A DNA stretch of 40,441 nt from NCBI GenBank assembly GCA_028684195.1, contig JAQUGH010000004.1, positions 1-40,441 of the forward strand, read 5' to 3'. Made by a program: the position numbers and the translations under genes. Positions 23,462 through 31,280 of the stretch are shown here, one piece after another. The stretch comes from Clostridia bacterium (GTDB lineage: Bacteria > Bacillota > Peptococcia > DRI-13 > DTU073). The notes below the pieces were generated by a model, which was not told where the DNA came from, made no database searches, and worked only from the letters and a program-made list of their open reading frames with translations. Position 1 is the first letter of the stretch. Every line of letters begins with the position of its first letter.

Positions 23462-25597
23462 TTGGCAAAGATACTGGTTGTTGTGGAGTCGCCAGCAAAA
23501 GCAAAAACAATAGGCAAATATTTGGGAAAAAAATATGTAGTGAAGGCATCCATGGGACATGTACGTGATCTACCTAAAAGTCAATTTGGTGTGGATGTGG
23601 AAAATGACTTTGAATTAAAATATATTACTATACGTGGCAAAGGAGAACTTGTAAAAGAGTTAAAAAGCTATGCTAAGAAGAGTGATAAGGTTCTTCTTGC
23701 TACTGACCCGGATCGTGAAGGAGAGGCTATTGCTTGGCATCTTCAAGAAATTTTAAAATTATCTGAGGATAGTAATTGTAGGGTGGAGTTTAACGAAATA
23801 ACAAAAGGAACTATAGCCGAGGCAATAAAGAATCCTCGCAAGGTTAATATAAACAGGGTTGAAGCTCAACAGGCAAGGCGTGTATTGGATAGAATTGTTG
23901 GTTATAGGTTAAGCCCTCTTCTTTGGAGTAAGATTAGGAAAGGACTTAGTGCTGGTCGAGTTCAATCGGTAGTTGTTCGTTTGGTATGTGATCGAGAGGA
24001 AGAAATAAATAACTTTGTATCGGAAGAATATTGGACATTGACAGCAAAATTGAGAAAAGAAAAGTTTAATTTTGAGACTAAGCTTATAAAAATTGGAGGA
24101 AAAAAAACCGAATTAAAAAATAAAGATCAGGTAAAAGAGATTATTGATAATATTGGTAATGAGGCTTTTATAGTGAAAAAAATCACCAAAAAAAAGCAGA
24201 AAAGGAATCCGTCATTTCCTTTTATTACGAGTACCTTACAACAGGAAGCATACCGAAAATTAAATTTTACAGCAAAGAAAACGATGATGCTTGCTCAACA
24301 GCTGTATGAGGGCTTGGATTTAAGTAAAAAAGAGGGTACGATTGGTTTGATAACGTACATGCGTACTGATTCTACTAGAATTAGTGAGGAAGCTAAAAAC
24401 GATACTGAGGGATATATTGAAGATGTGTATGGTAAAGAATATATTGCAGAAGAGGTACGTAAAAATAATGCTAAAGGAAAGATACAAAATGCTCATGAAT
24501 GTATCAGACCTACATCAATTAAAAGAGAACCTGATGCTATAAAAGAATATCTAAAAAAAGATCAATATAAACTTTATAAATTGATATGGAAACGTTTTTT
24601 AGCTTCTCAGATGGCTTCGGCTGTTTTGGATATAACTGTTGCTGATTTAAATGTTAATATATATTCTTTTAAAGCGACTGGAACAGTAATGGTATTTCCT
24701 GGCTTTACAAAAATATATATTGAAGGTAGCGATGAACAAGAAAATGAGGAAAGGGTTATACTTCCGGAGCTTAAGGAAGGGGAAGAGATACAACTAGATG
24801 AGTTTTTACCTAAACAGCATTTTACACAACCACTTTCACGTTACACTGAGGCAACGTTAGTAAAAACATTGGAAGAGAAGGGAATTGGTAGACCAAGTAC
24901 GTATGCACCCATATTAGACACGATTGTTTCAAGAGGGTATGTATTTAAAGAAAAAAAACAATATGCTCCTACAGATTTAGGTATTCTAGTAATGGAGCTT
25001 CTTAAAAAGTATTTTCCTGAAATTATAGATATAAAATTTACAGCAAATATGGAAGATAAGTTAGATTCCATAGAAGAAGGAGAAAGTAAATGGAAGGAAA
25101 TACTGGCACAATTTTTCAAGCCATTTGATGATGAATTACAAATTGCGGATAAGGAAATTGAAAATATTGAAATAGCAGATGAAGAAACAGATGTAATTTG
25201 TGATAAATGTGGTAGGAACATGGTTATTAAGCAAGGTCGCTATGGAAAATTTATTGCATGCCCTGGTTTTCCTGAATGTCGCAATACGAAACCAATTTTA
25301 GAAGAGATTGGGGTTACGTGCCCACAATGTGAAGAAGGAAAAGTAATAATACGTTGGTCAAAAAAAGGTAGAAAATTTTATGGGTGTAGTAATTATCCTG
25401 AATGTGACTTTGTTTCATGGGATGAGCCGACAAATAGAAAGTGTCCTCTGTGTGGAAAGGTTTTAGTTGTAAAAAGAAGCAAAAAAAATGGCAATAAATA
25501 TATTTGCTCAGACGAAAAATGTAAATACCTAGAAGAAATAGAAGAAATAGAAGAAATAGAAGAAATAGAAGAAATAGAAAATGATAATAAATCTTAA
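23462..25597 (+). CDS. topA: DNA topoisomerase I
   Basis: 711 residues. The Toprim domain begins [16 protein letters not shown] and has the [15 protein letters not shown] metal motif. The catalytic tyrosine is Y299 in [10 protein letters not shown]. Three C-terminal zinc ribbons follow (CDKC..., CPQC..., CPLC... groups, residues about 580-690). TopA relaxes negative supercoils. The start is TTG 23462 with GAGGTGAT upstream. The protein ends in an unusual (EEI)5 acidic tail encoded by a 9-bp tandem repeat. trmFO follows closely. Confidence 0.95.
25532..25576 (+). repeat. Nine-base tandem repeat at the topA 3' end
   Basis: Five perfect copies of GAAGAAATA encode EEI repeats at the TopA C-terminus. 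The unit is a multiple of three, so slippage changes tail length without breaking the frame. Confidence 0.95.
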
Positions 25598-25617
25598 TAG
25601 TGTTGGAGGGCGAAAAT

Positions 25618-29822: not shown

Positions 29823-30605
29823 ATGAAAACGCTTTTGGAAAAAACACGTACAGTAAATAAGTTATTGCAAAAAACAGCAGGTAATCCTGTTGAATTCACA
29901 GAAATGGCTAAGGTATTGAGTGATCTTATTGATTGCAATGTTTACATTGTTGGTAGAAGAGGCAAAATTTTGGGGTATGCATTTATGGATGGTTTTACTT
30001 GTCAAACGATTGAGGATATAGTTATGAAAGCTGAAAGATTTCCTGAGAGTTATAACGAAGATTTAATGAGAATTACGCAGACTCATGCCAATATTAAAAA
30101 AGAAGAAGCTGGATGCATTTTTAGTACTGATGTTTGTAGTTTTGAAAATAAAATAACTACAGTTGTACCGATAATGGGTGGCGGTGAAAGACAGGGTACT
30201 TTATTGTTGGCGAAATATGAAAATGAATTTACATCTGAGGATTTAATTCTTTCTGAATATGGTTCAGCTGTAATAGGAATGGAAATTTTACGGTCAAAAG
30301 CAGAACGTATAGAAGAAGAAGCTAGGCGTAAAGCAGCTGTACAGATTGCAATAGGTACTTTATCATATTCTGAGTTAGAAGCGATTGAACATATTTTTGC
30401 TGAATTGAAAGGTAAAGAAGGGCTTTTGATTGCTAGTAAGATTGCCGATCGTGTTGGAATTACTCGTTCAGTAATTGTAAATGCGTTGAGAAAATTTGAG
30501 AGTGCTGGTGTTATTGAGTCAAAATCACTTGGAATGAAGGGGACTTACATTAGAATTCTCAATGATAATTTGCTTGAGGAATTAGCAAAAATTAGACTTT
30601 GTTAG
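29823..30605 (+). CDS. codY: GTP-sensing global regulator CodY
   Basis: 260 residues. An N-terminal GAF domain (with [32 protein letters not shown]) binds branched-chain amino acids; the C-terminal winged helix [40 protein letters not shown] is the highly conserved DNA-binding part. CodY represses stationary-phase, nutrient and often motility genes when nutrients are rich. ATG 29823 follows GGGAGG; ATG 29808 overlaps the upstream spacer only. The gene closes the dprA-codY block and directly precedes the flagellar operon. Confidence 0.96.
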
Positions 30606-30624: not shown

Positions 30625-30657
30625 AAAAAGTTGTAGCCTAGGCTGCAACTTTTTTTT
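30625..30657 (+). terminator. Terminator after codY
   Basis: Stem 30625-30636 with 30643-30654 (one U-G) around CCTAGG, then T-run to 30657. Confidence 0.88.
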
Positions 30658-30672
30658 AAACCAACCAACTGC

Positions 30673-30772
30673 TTAACAATGGTTTAACGATAGTTTAACA
30701 ATAGTTTAACGATAGTTTAACAATAGTTTAACAATGGTTCAACAATCGTTCAGCAATAGTTTAACTATTGTT
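30673..30772. repeat. Tandem 11-bp dyad array (nine units) before the flagellar operon
   Basis: Nine consecutive 11-bp units of the form AAC-N4-GTT-T start at 30675 and every 11 bp after. The AAC and GTT half-sites hold in eight units (one has AGC), while only the middle four bases vary (AATG, GATA, AATA, GATA, AATA, AATG, AATC, AATA, TATT). The array is bordered on both sides by ACCAACTG (30664-30671 and 30778-30785). The last two units form a perfect 17-bp palindrome (30754-30770). It lies between the codY terminator and the flgB promoter. Confidence 0.9.
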
Positions 30773-30815
30773 TCCTGACCAACTGACCAAAAAAAAAAGC
30801 TTAAAGAAGAGGAAT

Positions 30816-30887: not shown

Positions 30888-31280
30888 GTGTTTGAAACGA
30901 ATGCTATTAATCTGCTTGAAAGGGCTATGAATGGTAGTAATTTGAGACACGCGGTACTAAGTAATAATTTAGCTAATGTTAATACACCAGAATATAAGAG
31001 GGGCGATGTGGAATTCCGTTCTTTATTAGGGAAAGAAATGGAATCGCATCTACTGTTAAAGAAAACACGGGATAAACATTTGGATTCAAAAGAAGTAAGT
31101 GTAGAGCCTGTAATGATTGATTATAGCTCAACAAGTTTACGCAATGATGGTAATAATGTTGATATTGATATGGAAAATGCTGCGTTGGCTGAGAATACTT
31201 TGTATTTTAATGGTATAGCTAAGTTTTTATCTTCACGGCTTTCGTTACTACGATATGCTGTTACGGAAGGAAGGAAATAG
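30888..31280 (+). CDS. flgB: Flagellar basal-body rod protein FlgB
   Basis: 130 residues with the N-terminal rod motif AVLSNNLANVNTPEYKR and a C-terminal helix. FlgB forms the proximal rod of the flagellar axial structure and is exported by the type III apparatus. GTG 30888 follows GGGAGTGA (30877-30884). It is the first gene of the operon, after the repeat array and promoter. Confidence 0.95.
   Translation: MFETNAINLLERAMNGSNLRHAVLSNNLANVNTPEYKRGDVEFRSLLGKEMESHLLLKKTRDKHLDSKEVSVEPVMIDYSSTSLRNDGNNVDIDMENAALAENTLYFNGIAKFLSSRLSLLRYAVTEGRK

Follow-up and report, generated by a model that had tools for sequence, protein, structure and literature searches.

An 11-bp tandem array between codY and flgB in a Clostridia bacterium, probably one copy of a dispersed intergenic repeat family

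Introduction

The closest described counterparts of the array reported here are the intergenic heptamer repeats of Xanthomonas and Nostoc, GGGAATC and GGGGA(C/T)T, about 90% of which are intergenic and whose function is unknown (PMC4692102). Dispersed tandem short units in a chromosome are also represented by the tandemly repeated heptanucleotides of the cyanobacterium Calothrix, as far as these are presented in the same source (PMC4692102). Another class, the REP, BIME and REPIN elements associated with RAYT, comprises dispersed, palindromic, extragenic sequences in many copies (PMC2817692; PMC3116915), the REP palindromes being 20-40 bp long (PMC3733652). At the level of the single site, the LexA SOS boxes of Bacillota read GAAC-N4-GTTC/T, and their AAC-N4-GTT core has been described in C. 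difficile (PMC4234289).

Here we analyse a tandem array lying between codY and the flagellar gene flgB in a Clostridia bacterium (assembly GCA_028684195.1, contig JAQUGH010000004.1, positions 1 to 40,441; this whole stretch of 40,441 nucleotides is called the window). Like the Xanthomonas and Nostoc heptamers, it belongs to short tandem units that occur at many loci, mostly intergenic and close to the upstream ORF, are rare between divergent genes and vary in length. Unlike the heptamers, which are 7 bp long, G-rich and quadruplex-forming, its 11-bp unit (TTAACNATNGT) is AT-rich and self-complementary, has three free positions and is accompanied by an 8-bp unit. The Calothrix repeats, in what the source gives of them, have other units and belong to another phylum. 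In contrast with REPs, we find 11-bp tandem arrays, and RAYT genes are not flanked by them; the AAC-N4-GTT core is shared with the SOS box, but the array units match neither its outer G nor its centre. A CRISPR array was discarded, the spacers being of 1 bp instead of the unique spacers of about 20-40 bp that would be needed. Literature searches for the unit sequences found none, and topic searches gave only the general class. In kind, the family resembles the heptamers (PMC4692102), with a new unit.

The array and its locus

The features of the locus are collected in Table 1. A first-pass annotation, made from the sequence alone, had described nine dyads upstream of the flagellar genes, and nine units stepping by 11 bp are indeed present. 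Eight are perfect AAC-N-AT-N-GTT and one is an AGC variant (AGCAATAGTT), the order from 5′ to 3′ being AACAATGGTT, AACGATAGTT, AACAATAGTT, AACGATAGTT, AACAATAGTT, AACAATGGTT, AACAATCGTT, AGCAATAGTT, AACTATTGTT. Tandem Repeats Finder (TRF) calls the array at 30673-30773 (period 11, 9.2 copies, score 132), which makes it the top-scoring tandem repeat of the window. The window also holds a perfect 9-bp tandem repeat, TAGAAGAAA, in 5.6 copies at 25530-25579, just before a trmFO-like ORF at 25600.

Table 1. Features of the codY-flgB region, in window coordinates
Feature	Position	Strand	Basis
codY, upstream gene	29823..30605	+	ORF; tblastn finds orthologues, 78-96% identical, before flgB in relatives
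Hairpin and T-run, likely codY terminator	30625..30657	+	RNA fold; comparable hairpins noted on visual inspection of this place in several relatives
Left 8-bp-type repeat words ACCAACCAACTGC and junction CTGCTT	30661..30674	+	CTGCTT-AAC junction recurs at many other loci
11-bp array, nine AAC-N-AT-N-GTT units with 1-bp spacers	30675..30772	+	Sequence reading, Tandem Repeats Finder
Junction TCCTG and right 8-bp repeat ACCAACTGACCA	30773..30790	+	TRF 30775-30790, period 8; junction recurs elsewhere
SigH-like promoter of flgB, AGGAATTT-N12-TAGAA	30810..30833	+	Downstream of the array; aligns in 15 relatives without the array
flgB, downstream gene	30888..31280	+	ORF; homologues in 25 of 26 genomes searched

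Several details of the earlier description have to be amended. The half-sites of the proposed AAC-N4-GTT unit hold, but its centre is not free: it reads N-AT-N, with AT as fixed as the half-sites, and the 1-bp spacer between units varies too. The word ACCAACTG, noted at both ends, is present there as a piece of a second, 8-bp tandem unit. Furthermore, the idea that all sites face one side of the DNA does not stand, because eight 11-bp steps, counted at 10.5 bp per turn, accumulate a drift of about 137 degrees on relaxed B-DNA; the helical phasing of the nine units is approximate only.

The array lies downstream of the terminator-like hairpin and before, not within, the SigH-like promoter, and since it is placed between a terminator and a promoter this gap is probably little transcribed. 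A simple terminator scan did not flag the hairpin, probably because its stem absorbs the T-run. For comparison, we considered 15 relatives with a comparable codY-flgB gap, whose CodY proteins are 78-96% identical: none of the 15 gaps holds the array. In one relative of the same family (G001), the gap measures 1221 bp and seems to contain an inserted, possibly broken gene.

A composite family throughout the genome

The unit was also sought elsewhere in the genome, another check that the annotation had proposed. A two-unit pattern of the 11-bp repeat gives 101 matches in the 2.37-Mb genome, and the reversed control none; the arrays are not due to chance. The 8-bp unit, WCCAACTG, gives 71 three-unit matches, again with zero in the reversed control, and goes along with the 11-bp arrays throughout the genome. 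Arrays were studied in stretches around these matches, total copy number being therefore a lower bound. Such stretches contain 53 arrays of at least three units, 51 of which lie outside ORFs in spite of a coding share of 82% in the sampled loci. The composite was found at about 40 sampled places beside unrelated genes, and the flanks of these stretches differ, except for one pair that corresponds to a single stretch represented twice.

The usual order of the composite is CTGCTT-[11-bp]n-TTTCCTG-[8-bp]m. Oriented by the 8-bp unit, it runs from CTGCTT or a T-run through purine-type AAC-RATR-GTT units to TTTCCTG and the WCCAACTG repeats, after which a second 11-bp array sometimes follows. The 3′ end of the 11-bp array is often a pyrimidine-type or A..C unit, and the unit just before TTTCCTG is more often of non-purine type than the others (Fisher p 0.003), a difference that fits an ordered, copied element. 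As to the surrounding genes, 1 of 36 arrays lies between divergent genes and 15 touch a stop codon; arrays nearer to the upstream stop than to the downstream start (15 vs 8) are not significantly in excess (p 0.09). In four contigs of this genome (C89, C98, C117 and C225) arrays stand at or near the ends; the assembly is probably interrupted by the repeats, and their copy number would be underestimated.

Variation in unit number was seen in one case. Contigs C117 and C225 share 262 bp and differ only by one 11-bp unit and one SNP, which fits slippage, a strain mixture or an effect of the 236-contig assembly being possible as well. Moreover, exact three-unit runs are common to 38 pairs of loci with unrelated flanks, vs 5.6 +/- 2.7 in shuffles; these shared runs fit the copying of segments between loci.

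The sequence rule of the unit

Unit chains were anchored on AAC....GTT only, so that the centre was not assumed. In the 254 units of the genome, eight positions are 92-100% fixed, including the central A and T (92% and 98%), and three are free, N1, N2 and the spacer carrying almost no information. N1 and N2 are nevertheless linked: both are purines or both pyrimidines in 218 of the 254 units, when about 129 would be expected (chi-square 130), and a self-complementary pair occurs in only 13. The same rule holds for 172 of 206 units in other Bacillota, where a centre-free search in the other carriers returned almost only N-AT-N units. The claim that the half-sites are kept beyond what neutral slippage would give is thus upheld, since the 254 units and those of unrelated genomes retain AAC-AT-GTT while three positions vary; the variable middle is restricted to N1 and N2.

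When the unit is folded back, its paired positions are the eight fixed ones, and their conservation could be due to such fold-back or to a symmetric binding protein. Fold-back is probably not the sole constraint, because the 8-bp unit, which is not self-complementary, also has fixed and free positions.

Distribution among genomes

The 11-bp unit is absent from all six same-family genomes searched and from nearly all other relatives. Among 399 genomes sampled across the phylum, four (about 1%) carry it, each with at least ten matches, and seven carry the 8-bp unit. Leaving aside the genome of the window, the two sets overlap in two genomes (chance p 0.0006), a figure that could be inflated by kinship inside families and by a propensity for repeats in general; the two units tend to go together in a genome. 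Named carriers in the GTDB collection include Clostridiales MAG AS21ysBPME_83 and Clostridia MAGs CSMAG_105 and CSMAG_113. In the other carriers, too, arrays lie outside genes (36 of 37), and the sequence constraint is common to distant Bacillota. Gammaproteobacterial records hold single uniform arrays that could have arisen by chance. Viral contigs showed five single arrays without 8-bp repeats, and no sign of a phage vector.

In one carrier (G134), the gaps between the genes of a 70-kb region (480-550 kb) contain tandem repeats of 11, 8 and 7 bp (TTAGCAG, AATTGTA), together with longer repeated blocks, up to about 16-fold. The AAC..GTT cores of this island raised the idea of integron attC sites, which was dropped because arrays in the genome of the window sit singly between ordinary genes.

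A tentative and rather improbable extension would see in these carriers a transferable repeat system, composed of the 11-bp unit with its R-AT-R rule and often the 8-bp companion, and spreading through whole genomes of unrelated Bacillota by means of a dedicated machinery, either a protein that binds the unit or an enzyme that copies it, in which RAYTs and LexA would have no part.

Origin of the array and alternative explanations

We consider it probable that the array belongs, as a single copy among many, to a composite family of intergenic short tandem repeats that slippage and copying have dispersed, and that it has no specific flagellar role. The parts of the family would be the 11-bp unit (AAC-R-AT-R-GTT with its spacer base) and the 8-bp unit WCCAACTG. 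Unit numbers would shift by replication slippage and multi-unit segments would be copied between loci, as the shared runs with unrelated flanks suggest, and the repeats would persist where they are harmless, away from coding sequence and in many cases immediately behind a stop codon. The copy studied here would have come to lie in the space that separates the codY terminator from the flgB promoter. This explanation is favoured by the multiplicity of the repeats against empty reversed controls, by their extragenic location in mostly coding loci, and by the absence of the array from the 15 codY-flgB gaps and of the unit from the six same-family genomes. The one-unit difference between contigs and the excess of shared runs also point to it, as do the pairing of all eight fixed positions on fold-back and the precedent of intergenic heptamers with large length variation in Xanthomonas and Nostoc (PMC4692102). 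However, pure slippage fails to account for three free against eight fixed positions across this and unrelated genomes, the 8-bp unit is constrained yet not self-complementary, and no enzyme that would copy segments between loci was found. The fixed positions nevertheless indicate that the unit is recognised or selected in some way, through either single-strand fold-back during replication or a binding protein; for the 11-bp unit we weakly favour slippage assisted by fold-back.

The binding protein, taken as the main cause, leads to the strongest of the rival readings, which we nonetheless hold to be doubtful. The palindromic AAC-N-AT-N-GTT would be an operator or iteron on which a dimeric protein loads along many arrays, organising the chromosome or having a titrating function and not acting as a local regulator. 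The symmetry of the fixed positions and the set places of the free bases, both kept across unrelated genomes, would suit such a site. Ribbon-helix-helix proteins such as MetJ and ParR bind 8-11 bp repeats side by side and provide a precedent. Nevertheless, no candidate protein was identified, the non-palindromic R-AT-R centre is unusual for a symmetric site, close relatives lack the arrays, and the 8-bp unit differs in sequence.

A role at the RNA level, as a hairpin at mRNA 3′ ends or between cistrons, is less probable still. As RNA, the array can form a self-paired structure (-25.8 kcal/mol), but folding is equally good on either strand (-25.8 and -26.0). Several arrays adjoin stop codons, and on the purine strand A-to-G changes exceed T-to-C changes (27 vs 7); the array of the window, in turn, is the one placed in the probably little-transcribed gap. 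In one carrier (G059) the purine-type strand is the sense one at 5 of 5 loci, but both orientations relative to genes occur in the genome of the window, and a fixed strand rule was rejected. An Rfam search gave matches only far below gathering scores.

Mobilisation of REP- or REPIN-like elements by RAYT (Y1) transposases is very unlikely and was rejected on the flanks of the RAYT genes. The repeats are dispersed, palindromic and intergenic, and all four carriers tested possess Y1_Tnp genes, mostly of RAYT length; however, genes of that length are likewise present in about 5 of 14 non-carriers. The genes read are not flanked by 11-bp runs or 8-bp arrays, and beside 13 Y1_Tnp genes of the four carriers no array was found, at most scattered single near-units. 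The RAYT-like genes are flanked instead by inverted words of their own (GGGACAGGTCCC, GGGACGGTTCTTTTG), probably belonging to unrelated REP families. One RAYT-like gene lies directly upstream of uvrB in this genome (contig C128).

That the array would be a regulatory element gating flgB, and so motility, as the first-pass annotation had proposed from its place between codY and flgB, is now scarcely credible. The motif AGGAATTT-N12-TAGAA, or a close form, aligns before flgB in the 15 relatives lacking the array (12 of 15 for the strict pattern); it resembles the SigH promoter consensus. As it is recognisable across the order, the flagellar operon of this lineage may well be under SigH-type control, and the conserved signal that controls flgB would lie elsewhere than in the array, which precedes this promoter without entering it. 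Moreover, the more than 50 copies in the genome (53 arrays) stand beside unrelated genes. The annotation had regarded absence of the array from relatives, with flgB regulation unchanged, as evidence against its own proposal, and on sequence evidence this is largely what was found.

The least probable reading takes the units for LexA (SOS-box) sites or decoys: the Bacillota box has the core GAAC-N4-GTT, and boxes with the exact AAC-N4-GTT core lie upstream of lexA in this genome (CGAACAAATGTTTG) and in eight others, but the outer G is missing in most array units, and none of 264 units (median 0.0, maximum 10.6 bits) reaches the 13.8 bits of the weakest true box in a matrix built from 20 lexA-type boxes, on which score this reading was rejected. 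Upstream regions of uvrB, considered as a further source of boxes, contained almost none and were left out of the matrix.

Concluding remarks

As this case shows, a striking array in a promoter region can turn out to belong to a repeat that runs through the whole genome. The array at codY-flgB is probably a little-known kind of spreading repeat and not a flagellar switch. The presence of arrays at several contig ends means that such repeats matter for assembly and typing, and the unit patterns are specific enough to be searched for in any genome and to serve as bait for a binding protein. The question raised is why about 1% of the sampled Bacillota, unrelated to each other, carry many 11-bp units in which eight positions are fixed and three free, in many cases beside the 8-bp companion, when their relatives carry none: the same rule recurs in a few distant members of the phylum.
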